Assembly: GCA_017526745.1 (NCBI GenBank)
Contig: JAFXQX010000033.1
Span: 186,001-250,000 of the forward strand
DNA: 64,000 bases
From: Lachnospiraceae bacterium
GTDB taxonomy: Bacteria > Bacillota > Clostridia > Lachnospirales > Lachnospiraceae
Direction: 5' to 3'
Below are positions 240-51,402 of the stretch, one piece after another. How positions within the stretch are numbered: the stretch's first letter is position 1; each line of letters opens with the position of its first letter. Made by a program: the position numbers and the translations under genes. The notes beneath the pieces were generated by a model, which worked only from the letters and a program-made list of their open reading frames with translations, ran no database searches and was not told the DNA's origin.

Positions 240-724
240 TTATCTTTCTTCTTTTCAAGCGTCATTTTTCTGGAAATGAAGTTATATACCATGACAACGC
301 CGGTCGCAAACATCTTGACAGCGGCTGTTACCGCCGAGGGGTATGACTTTACCGCCCACGGTGCTGCTGCATTGCATGCGATGACACCGAAATACAGTAT
401 CAGCTCGTTTATGCCAAGGCCAATGGCCGACAGAAGGGCAAATATGGCAAATTCCTTCTTGCGGTCAAGGTCGTCCCTCCGCTCGAAAACGAACTTCATG
501 CTCATGAAATAGTTGAAAACGAGCGAGATACAAAAGCCGAAAAGGCCTCCGACAGTGGCAGCGCCTGCCACATCCATCCCGAAAGCCCTGCAAAGTGCCG
601 AAACACCGAGCGTTATGACAAAGTCTATAACAAAGGACAGTCCGCCCACCACACCGAACTTCAGTATCTGGGCGAACAGTTTCTTTCTCTTATCCTGTTT
701 TGATATCACATTTTCTTCCATCAT
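236..724 (-). CDS. GtrA family membrane protein
   Basis: A 162-residue protein with four predicted membrane helices (about residues 18-40, 50-73, 90-115 and 130-152). The Asn-Tyr-Phe...Lys-Phe-Val-Phe element after helix 2 and the Asn-Phe-Ile-Ser-Arg element at the end of helix 4 match the GtrA family. GtrA-like proteins are thought to flip polyprenyl-phosphate-linked sugars across the membrane for sugar addition on the outside; the family assignment is firm, the substrate is unknown. The gene starts directly after the stop of the GT87 gene (TAG-ATG) and overlaps the lipoprotein gene, so GT87 and GtrA probably work as a pair that decorates the exported polysaccharide. Confidence 0.88.
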   Translation of the reverse strand: MMEENVISKQDKRKKLFAQILKFGVVGGLSFVIDFVITLGVSALCRAFGMDVAGAATVGGLFGFCISLVFNYFMSMKFVFERRDDLDRKKEFAIFALLSAIGLGINELILYFGVIACNAAAPWAVKSYPSAVTAAVKMFATGVVMVYNFISRKMTLEKKKDK

Positions 725-1954
725 CTATCCCCTTATCGATCCGTCTTTCCTTATCGATCTTACCCCCTTTATCGTTGCTGCGATCGTAAACAGATAATAT
801 GTTATGCCCACGATCAGCTTTGAGGCCGCATTCTCATCAAATATCCGAAGGACGAAACATAGCATGAACATAAGGAGTGCATACCATATGAACATGATAC
901 AGTCCCGGCGGCCGCTCTTATCATCCTGAATATCTCCCGGATATTGCCTTACAAACATCGCTGCGGCCGCGGAAAATACGAAGAAATCGTATGTTCTGTG
1001 ATATGTTATCACAAGCGACCACAATATCAGTATCGAAAACAGGAGATTTGCGGCGTCTTCCGGCATCTTTAAGGCCAGATACAGCAGTAAGGCCGCAATG
1101 ATAACCGCCGCAGCCGCATACAGCCCCTGCGGAAGAAATACTCCGAGATCTATCCCGCCTTCAGATGCCAGGACCGATGCAACCTTAAGCGGTGCCGTTA
1201 TCAGGTATATAAAGCTCTTCCCCAGCCAGACGGCGGCAAATGCCGTCATTATCACATGTATCATCACCGAGGCCGCAAACTCCCTGTACCTTTTCCTGAA
1301 GAGAAAATACAGGACAAGAGGTGCGGTAAGCGTGTACTTGAAGTACGAGACCGCCAGGCAGAGCGTGATGCCGGCAGATCTCATCAGGCCCGCCCGGTCA
1401 CCGGGGTGCCTGTCGATAAATACCGCAAGCATAAAGAAAAAGAAGGCGAATAATGTATGCTGCCCTACACCGAGCTGGTTGCGGTACGGTGTTCCTGCGA
1501 TCATAAGGAGCATCACTGCCGCAAAATCCGTCCTGTCCGAGTGCTCAAAAAAGGTCCTCCCAAGGAGCCATATGATCCCTGCGGTAAATCCGATGTTAAG
1601 CACTGCCCATACGATCTTTGCCGCCTGCGGCGAAAAGACTGTCATCGGTGCAAGAAGCATAAGGAGTGACGGAAACTGGTTGGCCTCCATCTTCTGCTTA
1701 AGGCCTCTGTCGGTAAACATCCTGTAAAACCGGTCGAGTGGCTCTATACCGGCTGTCCGTGAAGGCTCTAGCGACAGTTCATAAGGATCCAGCCGCATCG
1801 TGAGCGCTTTTGCGGCATCCCACTGGAAATCCTGGGAAAACTCCGCAGCGTTCTGCAGTCCTTTGATGACCGAAACAAGAGCAAGAGCCGCCAGCATAAC
1901 AAGCACTGTGGCCCTTAAGGCTTTATTATCCTTCCATTTCCTTAACAACTGCAT
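725..1954 (-). CDS. GT87-type polyprenol-phosphate-dependent glycosyltransferase
   Basis: A 409-residue protein with about ten hydrophobic helices. After the first helix is a Gln-Asp-Phe-Gln-Trp-Asp-Ala-Ala segment (Asp42) followed by an Asp-Pro-Tyr-Glu element. This is the layout of GT87/DUF2029 (GT-C fold) enzymes, in which an early extracytoplasmic Asp serves catalysis. Such enzymes move a sugar from a polyprenyl-phosphate donor to a glycan outside the membrane. The start overlaps the end of the phosphoglucomutase gene by 29 bp and has only a weak GAAG-like ribosome site; a later start would cut into the first helix, so this start is preferred. With the following GtrA gene it suggests a side-chain-adding module. 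The exact sugar is not predictable. Confidence 0.8.
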   Translation of the reverse strand: MQLLRKWKDNKALRATVLVMLAALALVSVIKGLQNAAEFSQDFQWDAAKALTMRLDPYELSLEPSRTAGIEPLDRFYRMFTDRGLKQKMEANQFPSLLMLLAPMTVFSPQAAKIVWAVLNIGFTAGIIWLLGRTFFEHSDRTDFAAVMLLMIAGTPYRNQLGVGQHTLFAFFFFMLAVFIDRHPGDRAGLMRSAGITLCLAVSYFKYTLTAPLVLYFLFRKRYREFAASVMIHVIMTAFAAVWLGKSFIYLITAPLKVASVLASEGGIDLGVFLPQGLYAAAAVIIAALLLYLALKMPEDAANLLFSILILWSLVITYHRTYDFFVFSAAAAMFVRQYPGDIQDDKSGRRDCIMFIWYALLMFMLCFVLRIFDENAASKLIVGITYYLFTIAATIKGVRSIRKDGSIRG

Positions 1955-3681: not shown

Positions 3682-5688
3682 TTATCCGACCATGCTCTTC
3701 GGGTTGCCCGCAAGAACAAAGTTGGAATGATCGAGTGAAAAGTTCGGGTTAAAATACGGATCTCCGGCATCAAGTTCAGCCTTCCACCGGGATCTGAACA
3801 GGTCACATTCTTTTTCATAACGGCCGGCATTTTCAGCCGTTGCCTTATCGGTAACATCCGTGCCTCTTGATGCGGATTCATAGTGAAACAGTTCCGCAAA
3901 AGGCGTAAATACGTTTAACAGGCCGCGCCTGCGAAGCTTTAAGCAAAAGTCCACGTCGTTGAGGGCAACCGCCAGATCTTCCGACAGTCCTCCGGCCTCT
4001 TCGAAAAGCTGCCTTTTGACCATAAGGCAGGCACCCGTTACGGCAGAGACGTTTTGCGCATAGCACAGCCTTCCCATATATCCGAGATTTTCCTTCGCAA
4101 GACCGTAATGAGAATGGCCTGCCGTCCTGTGAGCACCCAGACCTAGCACTATCCCCGCATGCTGGATCGTGTAGTCCGGATAGTAGAGCATGCAGCCGAC
4201 TGCGCCGACATCGCTCCTCTGCGAGTACATCAGCAGTTCTTCGAGCCAGTTTCTCGTGATCACCTCGGTATCGTTGTTAAGCAGCACTATATGTTCGCCT
4301 TTTGCAAATCCTTCGCCGAAGTTATTGATCTTCGAGTAGTTAAACTCTCCCTCGTAGGTTACGACCCTTATCTTCGGATGCTTTTCGAGCGTTTCGTAGT
4401 ACTGTTTTATCTCTTCGGTCGCGGAGTTGTTCTCTATGATGATGATCTCATAATTTTCATATGACGTCCTGTCGGTTATCGATTCTATGCAGCGCCTCAG
4501 ATCATCAACATGGTCCTTGTTGGGAATCAGTATCGATATGAGCGGGTTGCCGCAGATGGCGTACCTGATCCTGAAGATCGTCTCAAAGGCCCTGGAACTT
4601 TCAATCGAAAAGCCCGAAAAACCGCACGCCTTAAGGTGGGATGCCACGGCACCTTTGGCCGCATCTATCGCATAGCTTTTCGCATTGATGTCGGAAGCGA
4701 CCGAGCCGGCATGGCTCCTCCAGTAATACAGTATCTTCGGAACATGCACTATGTGTTTTGCAGCCTGTGTCAGGCGCAGTATCATGTCGTGGTCCTGACT
4801 TCCGTCAAATTCTGTCCTGAAAGTCCCGACCTTATCGACAAGTTCCTTTGAGAATACCGAAAAATGGCAGATATAGTTGTTCGCACGAAGATTGTCCGGC
4901 GCAAAGTCCGGCTTGAAGTGAAGCGTTATCATGTGGTCTATCGACTTGCCCGAGAAAGTGGTCTCGTCGCAGTATATGTAATCGGCATCCTTTTCGCATA
5001 TCGCCTTCATGTATTCGAAAAGCGCGCAGGGATGCAGGATATCGTCATGGTCAAACAGGCCTATGTAGTCTCCGCCCGCCATTTCAAAACACTTGTTGGT
5101 GTTACCCGATATCCCGAGATTTTCGGTCAGTCTCTCATACCTGATCCTGGGATCGTTATAGCCCTTGACGACCTGTTCGACATAGCCGTGCTCACTGTCG
5201 GACCCGTCCGCAAGACAGAGTTCCCAGCAGGGGTAAGTCTGCGCGATAACGGACTCTATCATCTCGCGAAGATAGACCTCGGGTGTATTGTACAAAGGAA
5301 CCAGTATTGAAAAAGTGATCTTTCGGGGAAAGGCAGTCTCCCTCTGGGCCTTAGTCTCTTCGGGGGACGGCATCGACAGCGTACCGTAACTCTTGTACGC
5401 CCTCTTTTCGATGATCTTGCTTGCGATCTTCTTCTTCAGATTGGATATGCTTCCGTACCTTCTGATACGGATGAACAGATTCTTCGTATGGCTCCAGACG
5501 AGGCGGAAGGGATATACGGCCTTCCATATCATGGAGTTCTTGAGCTTGTCCATCTTATATTCAAGATCTGCAAGCTTTGCCTCGGCATCGACGAGGCTTT
5601 CGGTAAGCCGGGCGTTTTTGCACCTTTCCTTCTCGTACAGATCTTTATAATATTCACTCGTCTTTGACAATTCCTCTTCGCGGTTCAT
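3682..5688 (-). CDS. Large glycosyltransferase with two GT2 domains
   Basis: About 668 residues. An N-terminal coiled-coil segment (about 2-55) precedes a basic linker, then a first GT2/GT-A domain begins at about residue 125 with an Ile-Leu-Val-Pro-Leu-Tyr-Asn strand and an Asp-His-Asp-Asp metal motif. A second GT2 domain begins near residue 385 with its own Asn-Asn-Asp motif. Tandem GT2 proteins of this kind are typical of rhamnan and O-antigen synthesis and may add two different linkages. A GTG start nine bases upstream is possible, but the ATG at 5688 has a GGGTGAT ribosome site at good spacing. It overlaps the next upstream GT2 gene by 35 bp. It should act at the inner membrane face on a lipid-linked glycan exported by the Wzm/Wzt pair; donor and acceptor are unknown. 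Confidence 0.87.
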   Translation of the reverse strand: MNREEELSKTSEYYKDLYEKERCKNARLTESLVDAEAKLADLEYKMDKLKNSMIWKAVYPFRLVWSHTKNLFIRIRRYGSISNLKKKIASKIIEKRAYKSYGTLSMPSPEETKAQRETAFPRKITFSILVPLYNTPEVYLREMIESVIAQTYPCWELCLADGSDSEHGYVEQVVKGYNDPRIRYERLTENLGISGNTNKCFEMAGGDYIGLFDHDDILHPCALFEYMKAICEKDADYIYCDETTFSGKSIDHMITLHFKPDFAPDNLRANNYICHFSVFSKELVDKVGTFRTEFDGSQDHDMILRLTQAAKHIVHVPKILYYWRSHAGSVASDINAKSYAIDAAKGAVASHLKACGFSGFSIESSRAFETIFRIRYAICGNPLISILIPNKDHVDDLRRCIESITDRTSYENYEIIIIENNSATEEIKQYYETLEKHPKIRVVTYEGEFNYSKINNFGEGFAKGEHIVLLNNDTEVITRNWLEELLMYSQRSDVGAVGCMLYYPDYTIQHAGIVLGLGAHRTAGHSHYGLAKENLGYMGRLCYAQNVSAVTGACLMVKRQLFEEAGGLSEDLAVALNDVDFCLKLRRRGLLNVFTPFAELFHYESASRGTDVTDKATAENAGRYEKECDLFRSRWKAELDAGDPYFNPNFSLDHSNFVLAGNPKSMVG

Positions 5689-7690
5689 ATATATCACCCA
5701 GAGCCACGCGGCAGCTCTTCATTCCGGTCTTTTTTCGGATAACGACCCCGATCCGGTACCTGATATGCGGATCGATATCGCCAAAGGCTATCCTGCACAC
5801 AAATCCGGCAAGATTGCTGTTTTCGGCATCGGGGAACACCTCCCCTACATCCCTCCGGTACTTCGGACTCGTTTTGGCTACGATGTATTCCTTCTTCTCG
5901 GCATCATCCTCGTCAAGCGGGATCAGGATCACAAACTTCTCGACAAGAGCATTGTCCCAGTTAAGCGACAGGGCCCAGCCCTCGATGACATATGCGTCCT
6001 TTGCATCCATTGCGATCCCCCGCTCTATCGAACAGTGATCTATGGACATGGCAACCTTGTCGGATATCCTGCCGGGAAGCTTGAAAAGCTGCTTCGTCCG
6101 GTTGCGCCTGTCGGTGACCTGATGGTCAGCAACGACCCCGCTCTTTATTGCAACGGTATCAACATCGAGCCTGTATCCGTAGAAAGGGTCCTGCCCGCCC
6201 GAAAGCCACGGGTGCATCGAATACAAAAGCTGCCTTTCGTTCCTAAGCCTTTCGGACTTGTCATCGCTTTCGGTATCCATACCTCTTGCCAGCGATTCAT
6301 GGTGGGTCATCGCAACGTCGCATAAGACCACGTTAAAGAAACCGTTTTCGACAAGTCTTGCACAGAAATCTATGTCGTTGTAGCCGACCTTCATTTTATC
6401 ACAGAATCCGCCTGTTTGATAGTATTTTTCCCTGTCGACCATAAGGCATGCGCCCGTCACGGCAAGAACATTCCAGGCGAAGCGGTTGCGGCAGTAATAC
6501 TGTACCTCTTTATCCGAATATCCCGACAGTTTATGCACGGGCCCGCGGTTGGTATTCATTACTCCGATATGCTGGATGGAGATGTCGTCGGGAAAGAGCA
6601 GTTTTGCGCCGACGGCCCCTACATAGGGCCTTGCAGCATAGCAGACCATCTTTTCCATGAAGTTTTCCGTTATCGCATCAACGTCATCGTTCATAAACAG
6701 CAGAAATCTGCCCTTTGCGCTGCCGGCTCCGATATGGTTCATGACCGACCAGTTAAAATCAAGCGGCTCATATATATAGTTTCCCCTTCCGCCGGGAAGC
6801 TGGGTAACGTATCTTTCGACGATATCCCTGTTCTTATCACTGCTTCCGTTATCGACAACGATTATCTCGTAGGGCGTATTCCCCGCATTGAGCCGTATGT
6901 TCCTGATGCATTCCTTTACGACATCGGGCTGGTCCTTGGAGGGGATTATGACGGAGACCAGGCAGGTGTCCTTGGGCGGGGCGGGCACTACGTTTATCCC
7001 GCGCCTCTTTTCCGCGGCCTCGCGGCACAGTATGTATCCGGGCCGGCTGTACCGCTCGTAAAGAGCCTCAAATATCTCCTCATCGGATGCATCCATGCCT
7101 CCGGGGATGATCGAATTTACATCCCTGTGAAAGAGTATCTGGGGAACATGACAGACACTGCCCGTGCGCTCCAGCGCGCGCAGCAGAAAATCACGGCATC
7201 TAATGTTATCTCCGATCTCGGGAGAACGCCTTATCGCCGGGACGAACCTGGCAAATGCCGTCTTTATCGCAAAGCATGTTTCGATATAGGGAAATGATAC
7301 GATCGTATCGGGTGAATAATCAGGTTTTCTCCAAGGAGTGCGAAGAACACGGATACGTTCATTGATATCCGTAAGATCAGCATATATATCGCAAGTTATA
7401 TCCTCATCCGGATATATGATATCCGCTCCGGCACCGTTTGCAAGAAGCCTTGATACCAAGTCCGGCTCAGGGACGCCTTCGGCGGAAACAAATACGACAT
7501 ACTCTTCATTGATGCCTTCAAAATTCAGTATATTTGCATCGTCATCGGGAAAACGGATGATGTGTCCCGTGTGTGTACTTTCGACAAGACCGGAGTCCGG
7601 AAGATAAGCCATCTCATAGCCGTAAGGCATGGTCTGTTTAAAGCATTCTTCCTTGTATTCAAGTAAGCATCCTTCTTTTGTACCGCTCAT
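5654..7690 (-). CDS. Multi-domain GT2 glycosyltransferase
   Basis: A 678-residue protein. Residues about 60-195 look like a remnant GT-A domain: the Asp-Glu-Asp motif, a Lys-Pro-Asp-Tyr-Ser-Pro-Asp element and a His-Val-Pro-Gln-Ile-Leu element are present, but the usual N-terminal nucleotide-binding strand is not. A complete GT2 domain starts at about 243 (Val-Ser-Val-Ile-Ile-Pro) and contains Asn-Asp-Asp. The tail (about 566-665), starting with Ile-Glu-Gly-Trp-Ala-Leu, looks beta-rich, as in accessory domains of rhamnan-type transferases. Such enzymes extend polysaccharide backbones in the cytoplasm. The gene overlaps the next GT2 gene by 35 bp, so translational coupling is likely. The ribosome site is weak. 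The linkage made is unknown. Confidence 0.84.
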   Translation of the reverse strand: MSGTKEGCLLEYKEECFKQTMPYGYEMAYLPDSGLVESTHTGHIIRFPDDDANILNFEGINEEYVVFVSAEGVPEPDLVSRLLANGAGADIIYPDEDITCDIYADLTDINERIRVLRTPWRKPDYSPDTIVSFPYIETCFAIKTAFARFVPAIRRSPEIGDNIRCRDFLLRALERTGSVCHVPQILFHRDVNSIIPGGMDASDEEIFEALYERYSRPGYILCREAAEKRRGINVVPAPPKDTCLVSVIIPSKDQPDVVKECIRNIRLNAGNTPYEIIVVDNGSSDKNRDIVERYVTQLPGGRGNYIYEPLDFNWSVMNHIGAGSAKGRFLLFMNDDVDAITENFMEKMVCYAARPYVGAVGAKLLFPDDISIQHIGVMNTNRGPVHKLSGYSDKEVQYYCRNRFAWNVLAVTGACLMVDREKYYQTGGFCDKMKVGYNDIDFCARLVENGFFNVVLCDVAMTHHESLARGMDTESDDKSERLRNERQLLYSMHPWLSGGQDPFYGYRLDVDTVAIKSGVVADHQVTDRRNRTKQLFKLPGRISDKVAMSIDHCSIERGIAMDAKDAYVIEGWALSLNWDNALVEKFVILIPLDEDDAEKKEYIVAKTSPKYRRDVGEVFPDAENSNLAGFVCRIAFGDIDPHIRYRIGVVIRKKTGMKSCRVALGDIYEPRRGIVKDE

Positions 7691-7703
7691 AGACTATATC
7701 GTA

Positions 7704-10031
7704 TTACCTCGTAAGATCCGCCCGGCAGAATCCTTCGGGCAGCGTATCCTCCTTGATGATGCCGGCCTTTCTCTTTGCACGGTAGGAAAACTTCGTCTTT
7801 TCCTCAAGCCGCAGTCTTTCCTGCTCCTTAAGGATAGACAGCACCTCGTCGTAGAAGGGTTCCTCGATCATCGTCACATGATACTTAAAATCGATCGATT
7901 TGGCATTTTGCGGGATGCCCTCGATGATGATCTGGGCATCGTTCGTATCGAATATATATGTGCTCCCGGAAAGCTTATAGCCGTTTATTATTATCTGTGA
8001 AACTGCCTGTTTGATCCCGTCGCTGAGCGTATACACGATCTCCTCCACGTGAAGGAGGCACGGATACTCCGTCGGATCGAGCCTTAAGGAATTGATATAG
8101 CGCTCAAAAGGCACATGGATCGTAACATGTCCGTCGTCAACACTGCCGATAACGCTGATCTGGTTCTCAGACGTGTAGTTTGTACCTCTTGAGAAATAAA
8201 TCTTAGGGGTGTCCAGATTACGAAGGTAAGATCCTATCTTAACGATATGGTCTATCGTGATCGAAGCAGTCGGCATGAGCACCTGCATCACCTCAAGAGA
8301 TGCGGATCCACCTATGATATATACCTGGAATGCATGCTCCATTTCGTTAAACAGCATGCGTTCCCCGATATCTATGCCGCAAAGGCTGTAAACATCCATA
8401 CCTTTCCGGGACAGATACATGGAAAAACCGTCATCGGTCCTGTCCCTGAAATGATAAAAGAGGGCTCTGTATATGACAAAGTTTACCGGGATGGCAAAAT
8501 CCCATACCCATTCATAATCAAGTACGGTCCAGTCTCCTTCCTCCAGCCTGTCCCTGTCCAGTACTATATTGGAGAATATCATGTCGAAATTGCACGGGTT
8601 GGAAGCTATGTACTTCTTCCTGAATTCTCTTTTGCCGAAAACCTCGTCAAACTTAACGCTTCGTCTGAACTCAGTCACTCCCGAACACTCTGTCAGTTTC
8701 CTGCAGTATTCGAGGATCACCGACTCCATCTGCGGATACTGCTCCGCAGCTTCAAGCCTGTTGAGATAGTCCTCGAGAGTGATGCCGGATATATATTCAA
8801 ACCTTACCGAGTCTTTTGCCTTCGATGCGATACCCGCAAGGAGCATGCCTCTCTCCTTGCCCTTCTCGAGCGTGCATTTTGCAGGGATCAACCCGGTCTT
8901 GCCGAACTGTTCCTTCAGAAGATCATAACTTTTGCTCAGATGTTCTATATGTGCGTTCGCATGATTTGAAAGAGCCATCTTATAGACTTTTCTGGCCCCG
9001 TCAGGCGTACGGTTTATGATCGTGCATACCCTGTATACGTCCATGCGCTCGTTGCCGTACTTGGCATAGATCGGAAGATCGCATTTTTCCTGCCATCCTT
9101 CGTCAGTTGAAGCTATAACGATGAACGAATTGGAAAACTCTGCAAATCTCCCCTCTTCGATCATCGAATCAAATGCTTTGGACTCATCAAACAGAACGAG
9201 CCTGTCGTTATCGTAATTCCTGAGATTGGTATTAAGGTCCCCTTTACCCGGGAGGAACTCGTCCGAGTATATAGTGTGGGGAAGCTTATAATCCGGATAC
9301 GGATAATAGAATCTGTGATCGGACAGACCGGCAGACTCAAGCAGATGCTCGAGGCTTTCCTTGGAGAACGTCCTGACCTTTGCTTCGGGGCCGTATCCTT
9401 CGATGCCGCCGAAATAATCCCCGGTATGGTCTTCCTTGCAGCCGGCAAAATATTTCATGCCAAGACGGTTTTCGATAGCGATCACTATCTTGCCGCCGGG
9501 GGCAAGGTGATCCTTTAATATGGTCAGAAGCTTTGTGTAGGGTTTGCGGTCCTGTATATAGGAGCCCGCATATTCAAGAACACCGATAAGGGTGATATAG
9601 TCGTATTTTTCGTTAAGATTCGGCTCGACATCCGCAAAGTTTCCGACGATTATCGAAACATTGTCATATTCCCTGTTGCGGTATGCGTTGATAAGACTCC
9701 TCTTTTTCGAAAGTTCCACGCATGTAACGGAGTGGGCACGCTGTGCCAGCGCCCCTGTTATCGCACCGCATCCGCTTCCTATCTCGAGCACCTTGTCTGT
9801 CGGACCTATCGGAAGCCATCCGACAACATTCTCCCTTATATATGACAGGTGGTACATCACAGACCACGATCTTGATTCCTGTATATAGTGCTCGTAGTCA
9901 AGGGCGGTATGATTTTTGACGTAGTCAAGCAGTCTGTCCTCCGCTGCTCCCTCGGAGTACATATCCTCGCCCGAATAATATGTGTAATCAACGGTCACGC
10001 TTCCTATGCGGTCAAAACTCTTATATCCCAT
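7704..10031 (-). CDS. SAM methyltransferase fused to a kinase-like domain
   Basis: A 775-residue protein. Residues about 60-240 are a class I methyltransferase: motif I is Val-Leu-Glu-Ile-Gly-Ser-Gly-Cys-Gly (81-89), with an acidic Glu106 at the end of the next strand. Residues about 335-530 resemble an APH/choline-kinase fold: Lys348/Lys351 and Glu363 as possible ATP contacts, a catalytic-loop-like Asp483....Asn488, and Asp505-Tyr-Glu507 in the DFG-like place. A beta-rich region (about 620-720) and a short charged helix (about 724-756) follow. The stop-to-start spacing to the Wzt gene is one base. A methyltransferase plus kinase next to Wzm/Wzt recalls WbdD, which caps O-antigen chains before export; capping here is inference. 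The methyltransferase call is firm, the kinase domain is moderately supported. Confidence 0.8.
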   Translation of the reverse strand: MGYKSFDRIGSVTVDYTYYSGEDMYSEGAAEDRLLDYVKNHTALDYEHYIQESRSWSVMYHLSYIRENVVGWLPIGPTDKVLEIGSGCGAITGALAQRAHSVTCVELSKKRSLINAYRNREYDNVSIIVGNFADVEPNLNEKYDYITLIGVLEYAGSYIQDRKPYTKLLTILKDHLAPGGKIVIAIENRLGMKYFAGCKEDHTGDYFGGIEGYGPEAKVRTFSKESLEHLLESAGLSDHRFYYPYPDYKLPHTIYSDEFLPGKGDLNTNLRNYDNDRLVLFDESKAFDSMIEEGRFAEFSNSFIVIASTDEGWQEKCDLPIYAKYGNERMDVYRVCTIINRTPDGARKVYKMALSNHANAHIEHLSKSYDLLKEQFGKTGLIPAKCTLEKGKERGMLLAGIASKAKDSVRFEYISGITLEDYLNRLEAAEQYPQMESVILEYCRKLTECSGVTEFRRSVKFDEVFGKREFRKKYIASNPCNFDMIFSNIVLDRDRLEEGDWTVLDYEWVWDFAIPVNFVIYRALFYHFRDRTDDGFSMYLSRKGMDVYSLCGIDIGERMLFNEMEHAFQVYIIGGSASLEVMQVLMPTASITIDHIVKIGSYLRNLDTPKIYFSRGTNYTSENQISVIGSVDDGHVTIHVPFERYINSLRLDPTEYPCLLHVEEIVYTLSDGIKQAVSQIIINGYKLSGSTYIFDTNDAQIIIEGIPQNAKSIDFKYHVTMIEEPFYDEVLSILKEQERLRLEEKTKFSYRAKRKAGIIKEDTLPEGFCRADLTR

Positions 10032-10032
10032 A

Positions 10033-11376
10033 TCAGTCTTCTTCCCTGTTAACTGTCACGATAGAATCCATATCGTAAAATCCGGTAGTGTTCTTGGATG
10101 AGACGACGGTCAGGTTGAACACGTCGTACAGTCTGTGGTAAACGGTAAAGCTCCCTTCCCTGTATCCCACGCAGCCGAGAGATATGAGATACTCTCCGCC
10201 CTGAAGCGACATATTCTGGGTAAAGGTCACCGTGCAGCACTGTCCGGCATTAAATGTCCCGGTCGTGATCTTTTCGAACATGGTGTTTGTTCCGGTGATC
10301 TCGGTACCCTGCATGTTCTTGAACGACAGGGCAAATATCGGATCCTGTACCGTATCAAAGAACCTTATCCTGACCCTTATCGTGAACTCATCGCCCTTGA
10401 TAATCGTATTTGTTATCGTACCGCTCTTATCATAGGCGCAGTAATCCTCAAACTCGGCAAGGCCGCTCCCGTATGCGTCGACATTCGGATTGAGCATCAT
10501 CAGGTCTTTCCATCTCGAGCCTTCGGATATCCTGCCGGACTTGTTCGTATCGGCGGTCGCGGTAAGCTGGCCGACAAGTACTTTTTTGTACATGTCGATT
10601 ATCTCTTTGGGATCACCCTCGCCGATCTTTTTGCCCCGTTCCAGAAGGATCACGCGGTCACAGTATTTACTGATGCTTCCGAGATCATGGCTGACGAACA
10701 GTATGGTCTTGCCCTGTGCCTTAAACTCCTCAAACTTCCTGTAGCATTTGTTCTGGAAGAACACGTCGCCGACGGACAGCGCCTCGTCAACGATCAGTAT
10801 CTCCGGATCGATGTTGATCGCTACGGCAAATGCCAAGCGGACGAACATACCGCTCGAATATGTCTTGACCTTCTGGTAGACAAATTCTCCGATATCGGCA
10901 AACTCGAGTATCGATGAAAGCCGCTCGTCTATCTCCTTTTGTGAAAACCCGAGCATCGTTCCGTTAAGATAAATGTTCTCGATGCCGGTAAACTCCATGT
11001 TGAATCCGGCGCCAAGCTCCAAAAGGGCGGATATGCGTCCGTTTATCGTAAGGTCTCCGGATGTCGGGGACAATACGCCGGTTATGATCTTAAGTATCGT
11101 TGATTTGCCGGAGCCGTTCGTTCCGATTATCCCGACGGTCTCGCCCTTGAACACATCAAAGCTTACGTCATCGAGGGCAAAGTGTTCGCGGCTGTGGATG
11201 TTCCTGCCTATATGGAGCGCCTCTTTGAGCCTGTCGCGATTCCTGTCGTAGAGTTTGTACACCTTCGATACATGGCTTACCTTTATCGCGGTCTCCCCTG
11301 AAATGTTTCCGGCCTCCACATGGTCGGTATGAGGCGTGTTATTCGGTTGTTTGATCACATCAAGAAAATCAGCCAT
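10033..11376 (-). CDS. wzt: Polysaccharide ABC transporter ATP-binding protein (Wzt-type)
   Basis: A 447-residue ATPase. The nucleotide-binding domain covers about 30-255: Walker A Gly-Thr-Asn-Gly-Ser-Gly-Lys-Ser-Thr (85-93), ABC signature Tyr-Ser-Ser-Gly-Met (173-177) and Walker B Ile-Leu-Ile-Val-Asp-Glu (193-198). After a linker, residues about 290-440 form a beta-rich domain like the C-terminal domain of Wzt, which in O9a-type systems binds the modified chain end and gates export. It should energise export of a lipid-linked polysaccharide with the adjacent permease. The extra C-terminal domain distinguishes it from short teichoic-acid or group-carbohydrate ATPases and agrees with a chain-terminator-controlled system. 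Confidence 0.92.
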   Translation of the reverse strand: MADFLDVIKQPNNTPHTDHVEAGNISGETAIKVSHVSKVYKLYDRNRDRLKEALHIGRNIHSREHFALDDVSFDVFKGETVGIIGTNGSGKSTILKIITGVLSPTSGDLTINGRISALLELGAGFNMEFTGIENIYLNGTMLGFSQKEIDERLSSILEFADIGEFVYQKVKTYSSGMFVRLAFAVAINIDPEILIVDEALSVGDVFFQNKCYRKFEEFKAQGKTILFVSHDLGSISKYCDRVILLERGKKIGEGDPKEIIDMYKKVLVGQLTATADTNKSGRISEGSRWKDLMMLNPNVDAYGSGLAEFEDYCAYDKSGTITNTIIKGDEFTIRVRIRFFDTVQDPIFALSFKNMQGTEITGTNTMFEKITTGTFNAGQCCTVTFTQNMSLQGGEYLISLGCVGYREGSFTVYHRLYDVFNLTVVSSKNTTGFYDMDSIVTVNREED

Positions 11377-11384
11377 ATCCTAAC

Positions 11385-12368
11385 CTACAAAACATCGGCA
11401 AAATGAACCTTGAGACGTTTGAATATTATCGCGCCGAAAGCAAATACGCACATCGTCAGTATCCAGAAATATGCTGTCGAATAGAAATTCTCCCAGAACC
11501 AGATCTTGTCTATGAAAGAGTCCCTGTAGCCTTCCACTATATAGTTCATGGGATTGAGCTTGAAAAGTATCCGAAGTTTCGGTGAAAGAGTCGTGATGTT
11601 CCACAAAATGGGAGTGGCCCAGATACCGACCTGAAGCACGATCGATATGATCTGTCCCAGATCCCTGAAGAAAATGATTATCGAGCAGGTGATATAACAC
11701 AGGCCGAGCACGAATATGAACATGCAGGCGCTGTAATAGAATATCTGCAGCGTGTATAGATCAGGATAGAATCCGTAACATGTGAACAGGATTATCGTAA
11801 ATATCAGGAAGAAACAGTGCACAAACAGTGCGGAGATGATCTTGATTATAGGGAGGATGCTGATCTTGAAAACGACCTTTTTGACAAGGTAATTGTACTC
11901 GAGAAGTGCACCCGTACCGTTTGAGAGCGCTTCCGAGAAGAAAAACCACGGAACGATACCGGCGATCAGCCACAAGATGTACGGGATCGTGATGTCTCCC
12001 TTGACTGCGACAGCCCTTGAGGGGAGCGCAACCGTAAATACGAACCAGTAAAGCAGCACGGTGATAACAGGCTGCACAAATGCCCATACTATACCGAGAT
12101 AGGATCCGGCATATCTGGTCTTGAAGTCATTCTTGGCCAGTTTCCATATCAGTTCCCTGTTCTGGAACAGTTCGACCGGGAGTATGACTATCTTGTCGTA
12201 TTTAAGCAGGAAAACGGAATAAATGGCTATGAGAATAACGCAGGAAATGATCTTTTTGATCATTTCCTCGCCGGGGTCCGCAAGCGGATTGTGATGCAGT
12301 ACAATGTATAGAAGAAGCGCCGCAACGACAACTGTTACGGCGGCAACGACCGTTTTCTTTCCTGTCAT
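11385..12368 (-). CDS. wzm: Polysaccharide ABC transporter permease (Wzm-type)
   Basis: A 327-residue membrane protein of the ABC-2 type. Two hydrophobic helices at the N-terminus (about 8-25 and 37-55) are an extension before the typical core. The core begins with the amphipathic Leu-Ile-Trp-Lys-Leu-Ala-Lys-Asn-Asp-Phe-Lys segment (about 73-84) and continues with six helices; the Asn-Pro-Met segment near the end is usual for Wzm/TagG. It forms the channel through which the undecaprenyl-linked glycan leaves the cytoplasm. It overlaps rfbC by four bases and lies just upstream of the ATPase gene, so the three are co-translated. The two extra N-terminal helices are unusual compared with the usual length of about 260 residues. 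Confidence 0.9.
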   Translation of the reverse strand: MTGKKTVVAAVTVVVAALLLYIVLHHNPLADPGEEMIKKIISCVILIAIYSVFLLKYDKIVILPVELFQNRELIWKLAKNDFKTRYAGSYLGIVWAFVQPVITVLLYWFVFTVALPSRAVAVKGDITIPYILWLIAGIVPWFFFSEALSNGTGALLEYNYLVKKVVFKISILPIIKIISALFVHCFFLIFTIILFTCYGFYPDLYTLQIFYYSACMFIFVLGLCYITCSIIIFFRDLGQIISIVLQVGIWATPILWNITTLSPKLRILFKLNPMNYIVEGYRDSFIDKIWFWENFYSTAYFWILTMCVFAFGAIIFKRLKVHFADVL

Positions 12369-12913
12369 TTGAGCTCCTTAAGGAGAGGCCATTTCGTATC
12401 CTTGTCGGAAAAGATCAGTTCCATCCCGTCTTCTATCGGCCAGTCGATCCCGATATCAGGATCGTTGTATATTATCCCGCCTTCATCGTTAGGATGATAC
12501 AGTTCGGTGCATTTATACGTAAACTCCGCATGATCCGACAGAACGAGGAATCCGTGGGCAAAGCCCTTCGGGATATAGAACATCTTCTTGTTCTCCTCGG
12601 AAAGGGTCAGCCCGAACCATTTCCCATATGTAGCCGATCCCTTCCTCATATCGACCGCCACATCAAATACTTCGCCTCTTATGACCCTTACAAGCTTGGC
12701 CTGAGGGTGCTGTATCTGGAAATGAAGGCCGCGCAGCACGCCTTTTTTGGATGCTGACTGGTTATCCTGGACAAATACACTGTCGATACCCGCTTCGGTA
12801 AAATCGGCGATATTGTATGTCTCCATAAAATATCCTCTTTCGTCCGAAAATACCTTAGGCGTGATCACCAAAAGCCCTTCTATAGGCGTGGTCTCAACAG
12901 TTATCTTTCCCAT
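12365..12913 (-). CDS. rfbC: dTDP-4-dehydrorhamnose 3,5-epimerase
   Basis: A 182-residue cupin enzyme, full length for RmlC. It epimerises C3 and C5 of dTDP-4-keto-6-deoxy-glucose in the dTDP-L-rhamnose pathway. Diagnostic segments are Phe-Val-Gln-Asp-Asn-Gln-Ser near residue 47, Leu-Arg-Gly-Leu-His-Phe-Gln with the catalytic His near 63, and Ile-Pro-Lys-Gly-Phe-Ala-His-Gly-Phe near 115-123. The gene overlaps the Wzm gene by four bases and follows the GH25 gene by 27 bp. With rfbA and rfbB upstream and rfbD far away on the other strand, the pathway is complete in the window, which argues that rhamnose is part of a local polysaccharide. Confidence 0.96.
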   Translation of the reverse strand: MGKITVETTPIEGLLVITPKVFSDERGYFMETYNIADFTEAGIDSVFVQDNQSASKKGVLRGLHFQIQHPQAKLVRVIRGEVFDVAVDMRKGSATYGKWFGLTLSEENKKMFYIPKGFAHGFLVLSDHAEFTYKCTELYHPNDEGGIIYNDPDIGIDWPIEDGMELIFSDKDTKWPLLKELK

Positions 12914-12940: not shown

Positions 12941-15559
12941 TCAATATCTCAAAAAGCTCTTGTTCATGTCAACTCTTCCGCCGATACCGTCAACCGTACC
13001 CTTTGAGGTGTACTGCCATATATCGTAGCGTCCGCTGTAGGTCGGGCCTTCAGCTCTGTACTGGGCAAGCCAGATCTTGCATGAAAGCGATGAAGTGTTG
13101 ATCTTCTCGGTAAGCCATGTCTTGTTGGCGTACAGTCCGGGCGTGTATCCCGCGGATGATATCGTCTTGCAGAATGCCCTGATGTTCTCGGTCCTCTGCT
13201 CCACGGACAGGGTATTGTATCCGGGTCTTGACGAGGACTCGACATCGAGGAATACGGGATAGTTGATACCGTAATCTCCGCAAAGTGCCGCACACATACT
13301 TGCCTCTTCGACTGCTTCGGCTTCGTTGAGCGCTGTCGAGAAGAAGTATACGCCGACCTTGAGTCCCGCACTCTTGGCCCCCTTCATATGGCTCGTAAAG
13401 TACGGATCCTGAATGAGCGCTCCCGTGGAAGCTCCACGGTATCCGCATCTGATTATGACAAAGTCTATACCTGATGCCTTGACCGAACTCCAGTTGATGC
13501 TCGGCTGGTACTTCGATACGTCTATTCCGAGAACGCCGGATCCGGTATCGAGCGATCCGTCGGAGTTGAACGAGTACGATACTCCGCCGATGATCTGGTC
13601 TCCGGTGACTTTCTCATGATCCTTTGTATAGTAGTAGCTCTTTCCGTCTATGTTCTGCCATCCGGTGTAGATGAACCCTACGACCTTCTTATAATATTTC
13701 TCGAACTTGTTGCTCTCATAGTCGGCATATTTCGCGAGCCTGTATTCATCATTCTCGAATACATACAGAGGATTCTTGGCCGAATCATACAGCTGTGCCT
13801 CGGGCTTGAACTTGCCGTCCGTAACAGTCTCGGTCTTTTGCTGATCGTCCAAAAGGATCAGGGAAGCATCCGGTGCCGGCGTAGGTGTAGGAGTCGGGGT
13901 GGCTGTCTCTTCCGGCTCGGGCGTAGGTGTAGGAGTTGGCGTCGCTGTTTCTTCCGGCTCAGGCGTCGGTGTAGGCGTCGGCGTCGGTGTAGGTGTTTCC
14001 GTAGGAGTAGGCGTAGCCGTCTCCGTGGGTGTCGGCGTAGGTGTTTCCGTAGGGGTAGGCGTAGGCGTCTCCGTTGGTGTCGTAGACGGCTCCTCCGTAG
14101 CGACAGTCCTGGGCATCATAGTGATCGCCGCAAAGTTCGTCCTTGAGAACGCGCTTCTGACAGATGAAGCCATATCCTCGAGAGCGCTTATTATGCGATT
14201 ACCCGCAGATGCGATGATCTCGGTCTTGGTAAGATCTACGACTGCCTCTTCGTATGTCTCGCCGTTTTCTACAGCAGTTGACTCGACGAACTCGACCGTA
14301 TCCTTGGGAGCTGTTCCTGTCTCAACATCGGCTGCCTTGTTTCCGTTATCCTCGGCCGCCGCATTGACCTCGCTCTCCTTCTTGATCTCATCCCTGATGT
14401 TGGCTATGACCTTGTATTCAACCTTTGCCTTGACGCTGACCTTCTGTCCGACTGTCGGATAGACATATCCGTCAAGGGCTTCGGAATCCGTTATCGCAAC
14501 GGAATAATCTCCTGCATTGATACCCGTCAGATGGATGATGCCGTCCTCATCCTCGTCTTCGTAGGTACTTTCCTTTTCCTTGTCGTCTGTGACCGTGATC
14601 CCCCACTTAACTCCCCTTACGAGAGTATCGTCCTCATCGACCAGTTTTACCTTCAGGTCTTTTTCAACACTTGTAAGAACAAGCGAGAGCATCTTGCCCT
14701 CAGAGGCCTGCATTTCGGATGCGGCATCTTCCATCTCCACATCCTCGGTCATTACGTTCTCCTCGTTATATGCGATAAGAGAAGCATCGTCGGTAAATGA
14801 CGGAAGAGCTGCCATGGCATTTGCCTTGTTGAGTTCTCCCTGATAATCGGCATACACCGTTGTGGTCATTACAGATGTGATGACGATAACGGCGGCCATA
14901 ACGAGGCAGCACCACTGAACTGCCGAATAGTTCTTCAGTCTGTCGGCAAATGATTCCATAGCCTCTTCGGCTTCAATGGCTTCATCGGTGATCTGGGCCT
15001 TTTTGACCTCTTCATACCTCCAGTTTGCCGACTTCTTACGAAAATCAGACGGGCCGTCCTTCTTGGTCGGAAGAATACCCATCTTTCTGTACTTATCAAG
15101 TCCTTTGGCGTGTCTGAAAGAATCACTCCCGTGTGGAGGAAGCGGACGCTTCTTTTTCTTTCCTTTAGTTGAAGAAGATACGGCTGCCTTTTCAGGAACC
15201 GCTTTCGATCTGTCTGCGGATTTGCGCTTATGCTTTAATTCTTCCGATCTGATTATGATCTTCTCGTCTACAGACTTTCTGATGGCCTGTTCCCTGTCTT
15301 CGACAGGCGGATTCGTATTGGCCTTCTTTGCTGAAGAGGACTTTTTCTTTTTCTCGTATGCGTAAAACGAATCGACGGCCTCCCTGACACCGTCCAGATC
15401 GGAAGTATCCACTTTAAGGTAATCTTCCGAAACGATCTGGGATATCGTCTCATTGACGATGGCATCCGATCCGCCCTCATGTGCTTTCATGGACATCTCG
15501 ACCCAGTCGAGACTCTTGCATTCTTCGGCCCCCCTGCCGTCAAACTTCTGTTTTTTCAT
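12941..15559 (-). CDS. Membrane-anchored GH25 muramidase-like protein
   Basis: An 872-residue protein with an unusual layout: a charged, Lys-rich N-terminal region (1-210) that should be cytoplasmic; one membrane helix (about 214-236); an extracellular part with a Cna-B-like beta domain (about 290-388); a Thr/Pro/Glu-rich stalk (about 490-563); a segment with a Gly-Trp-Gln-Asn...Tyr-Tyr-Tyr element like wall-binding repeats (about 620-665); and a C-terminal GH25 domain (675-872). GH25 enzymes cut the MurNAc-GlcNAc bond of peptidoglycan. The expected acidic residues are present (Asp680, and Asp772-Val-Glu774), so it could be active. The start has an AAGGGGA ribosome site. Lying between rfbA and rfbC, it may open or process the wall where polysaccharide is attached; this is inference. 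Confidence 0.88.
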   Translation of the reverse strand: MKKQKFDGRGAEECKSLDWVEMSMKAHEGGSDAIVNETISQIVSEDYLKVDTSDLDGVREAVDSFYAYEKKKKSSSAKKANTNPPVEDREQAIRKSVDEKIIIRSEELKHKRKSADRSKAVPEKAAVSSSTKGKKKKRPLPPHGSDSFRHAKGLDKYRKMGILPTKKDGPSDFRKKSANWRYEEVKKAQITDEAIEAEEAMESFADRLKNYSAVQWCCLVMAAVIVITSVMTTTVYADYQGELNKANAMAALPSFTDDASLIAYNEENVMTEDVEMEDAASEMQASEGKMLSLVLTSVEKDLKVKLVDEDDTLVRGVKWGITVTDDKEKESTYEDEDEDGIIHLTGINAGDYSVAITDSEALDGYVYPTVGQKVSVKAKVEYKVIANIRDEIKKESEVNAAAEDNGNKAADVETGTAPKDTVEFVESTAVENGETYEEAVVDLTKTEIIASAGNRIISALEDMASSVRSAFSRTNFAAITMMPRTVATEEPSTTPTETPTPTPTETPTPTPTETATPTPTETPTPTPTPTPTPEPEETATPTPTPTPEPEETATPTPTPTPAPDASLILLDDQQKTETVTDGKFKPEAQLYDSAKNPLYVFENDEYRLAKYADYESNKFEKYYKKVVGFIYTGWQNIDGKSYYYTKDHEKVTGDQIIGGVSYSFNSDGSLDTGSGVLGIDVSKYQPSINWSSVKASGIDFVIIRCGYRGASTGALIQDPYFTSHMKGAKSAGLKVGVYFFSTALNEAEAVEEASMCAALCGDYGINYPVFLDVESSSRPGYNTLSVEQRTENIRAFCKTISSAGYTPGLYANKTWLTEKINTSSLSCKIWLAQYRAEGPTYSGRYDIWQYTSKGTVDGIGGRVDMNKSFLRY
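13871..14092 (-). repeat. Low-complexity coding repeat (Thr/Pro/Glu stalk)
   Basis: This stretch inside the GH25 gene is built of short repeated units that encode Thr-Pro-Thr-Pro and Glu-Thr-Ala-Thr-Pro patterns, giving about 74 residues of extended stalk between the membrane-proximal domain and the wall-acting domain. On the plus strand it reads as runs of ggtgtaggcgt-like units. Such tracts often change length by slippage, so copy number may differ between strains. It is coding sequence, not a CRISPR array: there are no constant repeats separated by unique spacers. Confidence 0.85.
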
Positions 15560-15766: not shown

Positions 15767-16636
15767 TCATAACCCGTTTGCTACATCAACGAGGTATTTG
15801 CCGTAATCCGTCTTAAGGAGCGGATCGGCAAGCTTTAGGAGCTGATCCCGGTCAATGAATCCCCTTCTGTAAGCTATCTCTTCGATACAGGAGATGTACA
15901 TTCCCTGGCGTTTCTGGAATGCCCTTACAAAATCGGCAGCATCGAGCAGCATATCGTGATTCCCCGTATCAAGCCATGCAAACCCGCGGCCCAGTGTTTC
16001 GACATAAAGCGTGCCGCGACAAAGGTACTCGTTGTTGACTGACGTTATCTCTATCTCGCCTCTTGCCGAAGGCTTAACATTTTTTGCTATATCAACTACA
16101 TCATTATCATAGAAATACAGTCCCGGAACCGCATAGTTAGACTTTGGCTTCTCGGGCTTTTCCTCTATCGAAATCGCTTTTCCGTTCTCATCAAACTCCA
16201 CGACTCCGTATTCCTTTGGATCCCTTACGTAATACCCGAAGATCGTCGCACCCTTTTCTCTTGCAGCCGCCTGGCGCAGCACCTGTGAGAAGCTCTGGCC
16301 GTAGAAGATGTTATCGCCGAGGATGAGCGCAACACTGTCGGATCCGATATGTTCGGCTCCGATTATGAACGCATCCGCAAGTCCGCGGGGGCTTTCCTGC
16401 ACGGCATAGGACATGTTCAGTCCGAGGCCACTCCCGTCCCCGAACAGTTCCTTAAATACCGGAAGATCCCTTGGCGTCGATATGATGAGGATGTCCCTTA
16501 TATCAGCCAGCATCAGTATCGAAAGCGGATAGTAGATCATCGGCTTGTCATATACAGGCATCATCTGTTTGGACATTGCCTTTGTAAGGGGATACAGCCT
16601 TGTTCCGGCTCCTCCCGCTAAAATGATACCTTTCAT
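15767..16636 (-). CDS. rfbA: Glucose-1-phosphate thymidylyltransferase
   Basis: A 289-residue nucleotidyltransferase, the normal length of RmlA. It makes dTDP-glucose from dTTP and glucose-1-phosphate, the first step to dTDP-L-rhamnose. The N-terminal Leu-Ala-Gly-Gly-Ala-Gly-Thr-Arg-Leu signature (about 6-14), the Leu-Gly-Asp-Asn metal motif (about 107-110) and the Glu-Glu-Lys-Pro segment (about 158-161) are all intact. The start overlaps the end of rfbB by four bases, so rfbB and rfbA are coupled. The upstream phosphoglucomutase is encoded further along the same strand. In many bacteria this enzyme is inhibited by dTDP-rhamnose; that is family knowledge. Confidence 0.96.
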
Positions 16637-17706
16637 TTATACATTTCCTCGTAATATTTCTGGTAGTTGCCGCTAGTTACATGCTCCATCCACTCGGTAT
16701 GTTCGAAATACCAGCGGATCGTAAGCTTAATGCCTTCGGCAAACATCGTGTCCGGCTCCCATCCGATCTCTTTTTTGATCTTGTCGGGTGCGATGGCATA
16801 TCTTCTGTCATGACCCTTTCTGTCCTCAACATATGTGATAAGGTCGTAGTTTATATGAGCCTTTCTCGGGTCATCGTCGGGAAGCATTTCCTTTATCGTG
16901 TCGATGATGATCTTTACGATCTCGATATTCTGCTTTTCGTTATGGCCGCCGACGTTGTACTTCTCGCCGATGCGTCCCTTCTCAAGGACCATGTCGATGG
17001 CTTTTGCATGATCCATGACATACAGCCAGTCACGGACGTTCTTGCCGTCGCCGTATACCGGAAGTTTCTTGCCCGTAAGAACATTGTTGATGATCAGCGG
17101 GATGAGCTTTTCCGGGAACTGGTAAGGTCCGTAGTTATTGCTACAGTTTGTTATGACTGCCGGAAAATGATACGTATCGACATAAGCCTTCACCATGAAA
17201 TCAGATGAAGCCTTGCTTGCCGAATACGGGCTGTGCGGATCGTAAGGGGTCGTCTCGTAGAAGTATGTTCCTTCTTCGGTAAGGGAACCGTAAACCTCAT
17301 CCGTTGACACATGGAGGAATCTCTTGCCTTCCTTGAACCCTTCGCCCTCTTCCCACGCATATCTTGCGCAGTCAAGCATGTTAAGTGTCCCGATCACATT
17401 CGTTCTCGCAAAGATCTCAGGATCGCGGATACTCCTGTCAACATGCGACTCCGCGGCAAAATGAACGACATAGTCTATGTCATTTTGTGCGAAAATTTTC
17501 GAAATAGTATCCCTATCGCATATATCGGCTTTTATGAAGGAATAGTTAACGTTTCCCTCAAGATCCGCCAGATTTTCGAGATTCCCCGCATAAGTGAGAA
17601 GGTCGACATTGATGACCTTTACATCTCCATTATGCACATCGAAAATATAGTGGATAAAGTTTGAACCGATAAAACCGGCTCCGCCGGTCACAAGATAAGT
17701 TTTCAT
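16633..17706 (-). CDS. rfbB: dTDP-glucose 4,6-dehydratase
   Basis: A 357-residue short-chain dehydrogenase/reductase of the RmlB type. It converts dTDP-glucose to dTDP-4-keto-6-deoxyglucose. It has the NAD-binding Thr-Gly-Gly-Ala-Gly-Phe-Ile-Gly (about 7-14), the Ser-Thr-Asp-Glu-Val-Tyr-Gly substrate segment, and the catalytic Tyr-Ser-Ala-Ser-Lys. A TTG start nine bases upstream is possible, but the ATG at 17706 gives the usual Met-Lys-Thr-Tyr-Leu-Val-Thr-Gly-Gly start and sits about 10 bases after a GGAAGGA ribosome site. It is the first gene after a hairpin terminator and so the probable start of a transcription unit running through rfbA. I see no strong promoter in the 60 bp between the hairpin and the start. 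Confidence 0.95.
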
Positions 17707-17766
17707 CTGCAACAATTCCTTCCCTGACTACATAAATACCCATAGTCGTTAAAAAGCATAACATAA

Positions 17767-50532: not shown

Positions 50533-51402
50533 ATGAAGAAGATCATCATAACCGGGAGCAACGGGCAGCTCGGACGTGCCATAAACGACCTGTACGGTAG
50601 GGACAGCGACTATGAGCTTGTAAATACCGACTATAAAGTCGAAGGCATATCGGATCTTGATATCACCGATCTTAACCAGGTTCTTGAAGTGGTGCGCACG
50701 GTAAAGCCTTATGCGATCATAAACTGTGCCGCCCATACAAACGTTGATGCATGCGAGGTCCAGGTGGACAGCGCATATCGGATAAACGCCCTGGGGCCGA
50801 GGAATCTTGCGATCGCATCGTCCGAGGCAGGCGCAAAGCTTGTTCACATCTCGACCGATTACGTTTTTGCCGGAAACGGCACCACCCCGTATACGGAGTT
50901 TGACACACCCGCACCTATCGCGATGTACGGCAAGACAAAGCTTGCGGGCGAGAACTTCGTGAGAGAGTTTGCCGATAACTATTTCATGATAAGGACCGCA
51001 TGGCTGTACGGGGACGGCAAAAATTTTGTCAGAACGATGCTGAGGCTGTCGGAAAATCACGATGAGATAAGCGTTGTAAACGACCAGGTCGGATCGCCCA
51101 CATGCGCGGATGAGCTTGCAAGAGCGATCTTCGCGCTGCTTCCTACGGAAAACTACGGACTGTTCCACGGCACATGCGAAGGAATGTGTTCATGGGCTGA
51201 TTTTACAAAGGAGATCTTCCGTCTGGCAAAAAAAGACACGAAGGTCAACCCCGTATCGAGCAAACAATACAAGGAAATGAACCCGCAATCTGCCGACAGA
51301 CCGGCGTACTCGGTTCTGGAAAACTACATGTTAAAGCTGACTGGAAGCTATACGTTTGCCGACTGGGAAAAGGCCATTGCCGAATATATCAAAAAGATGT
51401 GA
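50533..51402 (+). CDS. rfbD: dTDP-4-dehydrorhamnose reductase
   Basis: A 289-residue short-chain reductase, normal length for RmlD. It performs the last step, NADPH-dependent reduction to dTDP-L-rhamnose. Motifs: Thr-Gly-Ser-Asn-Gly-Gln-Leu-Gly (about 7-14), Ser-Thr-Asp-Tyr-Val-Phe, and the catalytic Tyr-Gly-Lys-Thr-Lys (Tyr and Lys four apart). It is one of only two plus-strand genes here and is separated from rfbB, rfbA and rfbC by 33 kb of capsule genes. It has its own promoter and ribosome site and ends three bases from the convergent DUF212 gene, with no obvious terminator between them. Confidence 0.95.
   Translation: MKKIIITGSNGQLGRAINDLYGRDSDYELVNTDYKVEGISDLDITDLNQVLEVVRTVKPYAIINCAAHTNVDACEVQVDSAYRINALGPRNLAIASSEAGAKLVHISTDYVFAGNGTTPYTEFDTPAPIAMYGKTKLAGENFVREFADNYFMIRTAWLYGDGKNFVRTMLRLSENHDEISVVNDQVGSPTCADELARAIFALLPTENYGLFHGTCEGMCSWADFTKEIFRLAKKDTKVNPVSSKQYKEMNPQSADRPAYSVLENYMLKLTGSYTFADWEKAIAEYIKKM

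Follow-up and report, generated by a model that had tools for sequence, protein, structure and literature searches.

Within a 64,000-nucleotide stretch of DNA from a Lachnospiraceae bacterium (assembly GCA_017526745.1, contig JAFXQX010000033.1, positions 186,001 to 250,000; the whole stretch is hereafter called the window), an open reading frame (ORF) on the minus strand encodes a 775-residue protein in which a methyltransferase is joined to a kinase. This protein is probably the terminator of a surface polysaccharide that is exported by an ATP-binding cassette (ABC) transporter and is likely to contain rhamnose, with the kinase, the methyltransferase and the C-terminal domain of the exporter subunit Wzt (Wzt_C) acting as follows. 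Two glycosyltransferases, A and B, would work in the cytoplasm to lengthen a chain carried on a lipid; the kinase domain would place a phosphate on the non-reducing chain end; the methyltransferase domain would methylate this terminal phosphate, halting growth; and Wzt_C would bind the cap, upon which export via Wzm would begin. A cap serving as a stop-and-export signal has been worked out mainly in Gram-negative bacteria. The proposal is based on domain content, predicted fold, a conserved kinase core, gene order and co-occurrence with a cap-reading Wzt, together with homology to Gram-negative proteins and fusion with glycosyltransferases in relatives. We infer the substrate, the order of the two reactions, the methyl-phosphate nature of the cap, that the capped sugar is rhamnose and that the window Wzt recognises the cap; the polymer would be a wall polysaccharide. 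The gene and its parts are:

7704..10031, minus strand: methyltransferase-kinase, proposed chain terminator, 775 residues (ORF; conserved family)
9117..10004, minus strand: class I S-adenosylmethionine (SAM) methyltransferase domain, about residues 10-305
8307..9074, minus strand: APH-fold kinase domain, about residues 320-575
7866..8210, minus strand: beta-rich domain, about residues 608-722, possible carbohydrate-binding module (secondary structure of the model)
7791..7856, minus strand: short charged C-terminal helix, residues 726-747 (model; predicted local distance difference test score roughly 60-77)

A Pfam scan of the terminator matched Methyltransf_23 at residues 77-237 (E 2e-11), and the methyltransferase motif I that the initial annotation had placed at residues 81-89 was confirmed, the sequence there being VLEIGSGCG. 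The best 25 of 40 NCBIfam matches all lie in the methyltransferase part, all of them under their cut-offs, and the PHROGs matches are restricted to residues 56-190 of the same part. The role proposed here suggests a function for a family that the Pfam and NCBIfam scans matched to nothing but generic methyltransferase models.

The alignments behind the structural models (A1 and A2) contained the window protein and those of 30 of 36 loci from named genomes, the split or cut loci L031-L036 being excluded. The fold-search matches of the full-length model were to the methyltransferase half only, and the second half was therefore modelled by itself. APH kinases were the best matches of this second model and filled most of the Foldseek list, which also included AmiN (6sum); the fold prediction named in the initial annotation as a check thus returned a kinase, with APH best. 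WbdD, the E. coli terminator to which the protein had been likened, was not among the fold matches listed for either model, which is no proof that WbdD differs. Searched alone as a fragment, the middle domain of the window protein had no Pfam match, and that of single family members gave scattered weak ones, one of them Pkinase (E 0.15). A search of the PDB with the kinase-domain profile aligned the catalytic loop with that of tyrosine kinases such as JAK2, at weak significance (E 0.002-0.02).

Conservation was analyzed in 73 distinct sequences, obtained by merging identical entries among 84 rows above the domain-profile threshold and including the window, split and fused proteins; loci L076 and L082 fell below that threshold. 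D483, N488, D505 and W508 are unchanged in all 73 sequences, K351 is Lys in 70 of the 70 that have a letter at that column, and H361 is kept in 68 of 70. Of the residues first listed as standing in the order of an APH kinase, K351, D483, N488 and the D505-x-E-W motif are thus conserved, while K348 falls outside the invariant columns and Glu363 is not conserved. On this pattern the window protein likely contains an active kinase. L082 was considered as a kinase-less relative and dropped: D-x4-N and D-x-E-W are present (profile score 28.5 bits), and it keeps the catalytic Asp, the Asn and the D505 position. Tandem methyltransferase-kinase paralogues with D-x-K-W replacing D-x-E-W were seen in L097 (5328-6755 and 6767-8389), with no Wzt in the stretch read.

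Two plasmid-borne homologues come from Gram-negative bacteria, one from Pseudomonas asturiensis (L075, 1457 residues, with GT2 modules at its end) and one from Citrobacter braakii (L076, 649 residues), and both are encoded downstream of an ABC permease gene and the gene of a Wzt_C-bearing Wzt. In profile alignments, the window family matched L075 with an E value of 4e-45 over 574 columns, which include D-A-V-P-Q-N and I-D-V-E-W and reach into the beta-rich domain at about 608-722, and matched L076 with 7e-42 over 423 columns. Residues Y28, Y66, G91, G93, E112 and Y158 of L075 carry the same numbers as the published SAM-site residues of ORF6 from Klebsiella pneumoniae O7 (ORF6-O7), and the catalytic Asp is residue 443 in L075 and 441 in ORF6-O7 (PMC11231755). 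L075 is therefore very probably an ORF6-O7 relative, and by sequence the window family is homologous to L075. By alignment with L075, the SAM-site residues Y28/Y66/G91/G93/Y158 correspond to Y25/Y60/G85/G87/Y154 of the window protein, and E112 to E106, where the family consensus has Asp. In the O7 study, ORF6-O7 phosphorylated and methylated a chain mimic, and a D441A substitution abolished phosphorylation; cells with the D441A variant yielded high-molecular-weight material, read as non-exported, and no product linked to lipid A was detectable (PMC11231755). Orthologues were named there from alpha- and gammaproteobacteria and cyanobacteria (PMC11231755). The nearest characterised system appears to be K. 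pneumoniae O7 ORF6, and not WbdD as first supposed. The end of the L076 protein (9944-11893) is a heptad-like helix, and megablast of the Citrobacter gene against E. coli genomes gave no match.

The beta-rich domain was absent from the description in the initial annotation. The short charged terminal helix that it did describe is predicted at residues 726-747, at modest confidence, and of 31 aligned sequences, 12 (among them that of the window protein) have a comparable tail and 19 lack it.

The exporter is encoded immediately upstream of the terminator:

10033..11376, minus strand: Wzt, exporter ATP-binding subunit (Pfam ABC_tran 6e-23, Wzt_C 1.5e-40)
10069..10479, minus strand: Wzt_C domain, residues 300-436, proposed cap reader (PF14524)
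11385..12368, minus strand: Wzm, exporter permease (Pfam ABC2_membrane 7e-16)

One base separates the Wzt and terminator ORFs, so that the placement of the gene one base after a Wzt with a C-terminal domain agrees with the ORF coordinates and with PF14524. The 775-residue protein has one match in its own genome, and the closest named locus, from a goat-gut Lachnospiraceae metagenome-assembled genome, is 84% identical. The order Wzm-Wzt-terminator-two glycosyltransferases was found again in many other genomes, and the arrangement is therefore beyond chance. A Wzt homologue lies upstream within about 1 kb in 35 of the 36 loci from named genomes (the exception is L035; in L027 Wzt is in two ORFs), and Wzt_C is present in all 38 aligned Wzt proteins, namely that of the window, 35 from the named-genome loci and the two plasmid-borne ones. 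L035, a locus without Wzt, has a separate kinase gene (10902-11990) whose product is weakly like PglD_N in its C-terminal part (E 1.6e-4, just under the cut-off).

Within the genus, a strong match to the terminator (E <1e-100) was found in 35 of 36 other genomes, G019 having none, and none of 24 other genomes of the order reached 1e-20 in the same search. At E 0.001 this search matched 54 of 61 genomes; the matches outside the genus (1e-15 to 1e-3) were mostly to the methyltransferase fold alone and were not counted as family. Among 392 sampled genomes of the order, 112 hold the family (E up to 1e-20) and 133 hold Wzt_C (E up to 1e-5): 105 have both, seven the family only, 28 Wzt_C only and 252 neither (P 2e-59, a value inflated by shared ancestry). 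The best Wzt_C score in the 28 genomes with no terminator is 122.5 bits, and in 103 of the 105 genomes with both the best is at least 129.6, the exceptions being G394 and G410. The proximity count took 115 family places, after exclusion of 21 rows, each of them part of a gene or gene pair already represented by its other part; 23 of these places have no Wzt_C within 2 kb. A draw across the phylum gave a family match in 12 of 398 genomes, eight of them related at phylum level only, and the family is therefore not confined to the order. Gene context and co-occurrence thus bear out the expectation that relatives mostly stand with Wzm and a Wzt bearing the cap-binding C-terminal domain, the opposite of which had been named as refuting the terminator idea. 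Relatives of the L013 protein (37-56% identity) were also seen in three unannotated fecal 'Bacteriophage sp.' records (MT839147, MT836085 and MT836982), which are possibly bacterial contigs filed as phage.

The two domains are also found split, or fused to further modules. The methyltransferase and the kinase are separate adjacent genes, with the kinase motifs present, in L031, L033, L034 and L035, and in L032 one chain combines the kinase with a coiled-looking stretch and a pair of GT2 domains. Nineteen further stretches from other genomes were chosen deliberately as fused, split or odd-looking. Among them, the proteins of L080, L083, L084 and L086 each unite a methyltransferase, a kinase and GT2, and that of L087 a kinase and GT2; the spacers in L080, L083, L084 and L087 are heptad-like by eye. 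Fusions of this kind point to a terminator that cooperates with the polymerase. In L094 and L095 the methyltransferase and kinase are separate genes found with Wzm and a short Wzt, and in L096 the terminator-family gene precedes Wzm. Neither Wzm nor Wzt was seen in what was read of L081, L088, L090, L091 and L097 (in the genomes of L081 and L088, Wzt_C lies on a different contig or at a distance of 183 kb), and L092 and L093 have weak Wzt-like ATPases only. The gene that separates the short Wzt from the methyltransferase (L094 8825-9655, L095 8479-9318) was considered as a separate cap-binding protein and rejected, since it reads by eye as an NAD-dependent epimerase.

Downstream of the terminator lie the two glycosyltransferase genes:

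5654..7690, minus strand: GT2 glycosyltransferase B, candidate chain-building enzyme (Pfam Glycos_transf_2 3e-16; conserved order)
3682..5697, minus strand: GT2-GT2 glycosyltransferase A, candidate polymerase (Pfam Glycos_transf_2, two stretches, 9e-42)
5503..5661, minus strand: N-terminal heptad-like helix and SMIWKAVYPFR motif of glycosyltransferase A (sequence)

Glycosyltransferase A starts with a heptad-like helix of about 40 residues followed by a W-K/R-x3-P/G-x-R motif, in the window and in 27 of 28 relatives, these being the loci among the 36 with a strong glycosyltransferase A match. The first motif pattern fitted 12 of the 28; the wider one was written after inspection, and the 27 of 28 thus describes the set and is no test. 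Heptad shuffles of the helices reached the observed values in 1 to 82 of 500 trials, which is suggestive of a coiled coil in individual glycosyltransferase A helices. A motif of the same kind follows the spacer of the fused kinase in L079. We tentatively raise the possibility, which we would not yet favour, that much of the order, presumably Lachnospirales, exports an O7-type methyl-phosphate-capped polysaccharide with the ruler shifted to the polymerase, the glycosyltransferase A helix spacing a free terminator and the two-protein complex setting chain length. The fused, split and separate arrangements of the modules form a natural series for testing how chain length is set by coiled coils.

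Several observations weigh against the identification of the protein as a terminator. The literature searched contained no biochemistry or glycan structure for the source organism, and the link between the window protein and ORF6-O7 runs through L075 as a proxy. E363 is Glu in only six of the 70 sequences with a letter there, and L076, otherwise homologous, has Glu at the D505 position (FEREW), with the catalytic Asp and Asn kept; the kinase of L076 may be altered. Fifty-seven of 149 Wzt_C places have no family member within 2 kb, and seven of the 112 family-bearing genomes have no Wzt_C match. Layouts were read in four of these seven (G053, G329 and G332 were left out): in G094 and G131 (L094 and L095) Wzm is accompanied by a short Wzt that lacks Wzt_C, and G379 and G265 (L090 and L097) have no clear Wzt in the stretch read. 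Finally, the terminator has a helix of about 22 residues only and not the extended C-terminal coiled coil of WbdD, which leaves chain-length measurement without explanation; the WbdD-like length control first envisaged was not upheld, as WbdD's length gauge is missing.

Three other explanations were considered. The cap may be a phosphate or cyclic phosphate as in Clostridioides difficile Ox247, the methyltransferase acting elsewhere, e.g., on a sugar; the Ox247 glycan indeed terminates in 2,3-cyclophosphoryl-rhamnose, with an ABC transporter encoded at its locus (PMC6254364), but the domain order and homology of the window protein fit the ORF6-O7 type, a maker of methyl phosphate, and we regard this explanation as unlikely. 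It is quite unlikely that both activities are present but decorate internal residues or side branches without stopping growth: the seven genomes lacking Wzt_C and the short Wzt of L094 and L095 would suit a decorator, which needs no cap reader, but the strong co-occurrence with Wzt_C, the split in Wzt_C scores and the homology to a protein related to a tested terminator (PMC11231755) speak against it. An O-methyl cap like those of Geobacillus (WsaE) and E. coli O8, with a purely structural kinase-like domain, is very improbable, for although a Gram-positive is known to use a methyl-only cap (PMC2943079) and the variable E363 and the altered metal-site Asp of L076 point that way, K351, D483, N488 and D505 persist in divergent relatives, both fused and split, which is unusual for a dead kinase, and the kinase is a separate neighbouring gene in four loci.

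The window also encodes dTDP-rhamnose functions:

12365..12913, minus strand: RmlC, dTDP-rhamnose pathway (Pfam dTDP_sugar_isom 4e-76)
15767..16636, minus strand: nucleotidyl transferase, RmlA-like (Pfam NTP_transferase 1e-75)
16633..17715, minus strand: dehydratase, RmlB-like (Pfam GDP_Man_Dehyd 8e-94)
50533..51402, plus strand: RmlD (Pfam RmlD_sub_bind 4.6e-91 at C43:236539-237399)

By family, the nucleotidyl transferase is labelled RmlA and the dehydratase RmlB; all four Rml functions being encoded, dTDP-rhamnose is probably available. As regards attachment of the polymer, a single LytR-CpsA-Psr protein is encoded elsewhere in the genome. Between rmlC and rmlA lies a gene (12941-15559, minus strand) for an 872-residue protein with a GH25 lysozyme-like domain, a SpaA fold and threonine/proline repeats. 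A GtrA-like membrane protein (PF04138) adjoins a GT87 protein (PF09594) at 236-1954 (minus strand), a pair that resembles parts of three-component systems decorating glycans outside the membrane. Two Wzy_C-type proteins are encoded at about 36600-39600 on the minus strand (G000:C43:222606-222998 and 225221-225595), and a second, Wzy-type polysaccharide cluster therefore appears to share the island. Outside the window, the same genome encodes a 465-residue protein (L078 14093-15490, minus strand) that has no Pfam match but bears the APH-like motif HGDLCFSNILF; a probable nucleotidyl transferase and a bacterial sugar transferase are encoded close by.

In Gram-positives, glycans that carry a cap and leave the cell through a Wzm/Wzt-type exporter are already known or proposed (PMC2943079, PMC6254364). 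What would be new is a widespread Gram-positive variant of a known terminator type; no report of a kinase-methyltransferase terminator in a Gram-positive was found in the literature searched, which consisted of titles and abstract openings with subscription journals poorly covered. If the protein is such a terminator, methyl-phosphate cap-licensed glycan export would extend to Gram-positives, and the cap-reading domains on Gram-positive Wzt proteins would be explained; recognition of a 3-O-methyl cap has been shown for the C-terminal domain of Aquifex Wzt (PMC9445017).

WsaE of Geobacillus stearothermophilus, compared by description only, likewise belongs to a Gram-positive with a rhamnan and Wzm/Wzt, and its N-terminal methyltransferase is thought to end the chain; however, the cap is 2-O-methyl, the methyltransferase shares one protein with two glycosyltransferase domains (PMC2943079), and the available part of that account describes no kinase, whereas the window protein has a kinase domain. 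The S-layer glycan locus of C. difficile Ox247, also compared by description only, is Clostridial and rhamnose-rich with proposed ABC export, and a terminal rhamnose with phosphate is proposed to terminate its chain, but this phosphate is cyclic and without methyl, and the available part of that account names no gene as responsible; the authors suggested that it acts like the E. coli O9a cap (PMC6254364). WbdD of E. coli O9a shares with the window protein a methyltransferase and a kinase, the ABC-transporter pathway and a capped chain, with a methyl-phosphate cap proposed, but its kinase is described as eukaryote-like (PMC3482155) and, according to the O7 authors, is quite different from that of ORF6-O7 (PMC11231755); its C-terminal domain (460-708) has predicted coiled coils, compared with the short helix of the window protein. 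In ORF6-O7, as in the window protein, a methyltransferase is followed by an AmiN/APH-like kinase (PMC11231755); after the kinase ORF6-O7 has a predicted carbohydrate-binding module and the window protein a beta-rich domain that may be one. The ORF6-O7 gene adjoins wzm/wzt and serves a rhamnose-containing polymer, as would that of the window. ORF6-O7 differs in that its chain also includes a coiled coil and two GT2 modules, whereas the window glycosyltransferases are separate genes and the heptad-like helix is on glycosyltransferase A and not on the terminator, and in that it serves a Gram-negative O antigen, the host of the window being a Lachnospiraceae relative.
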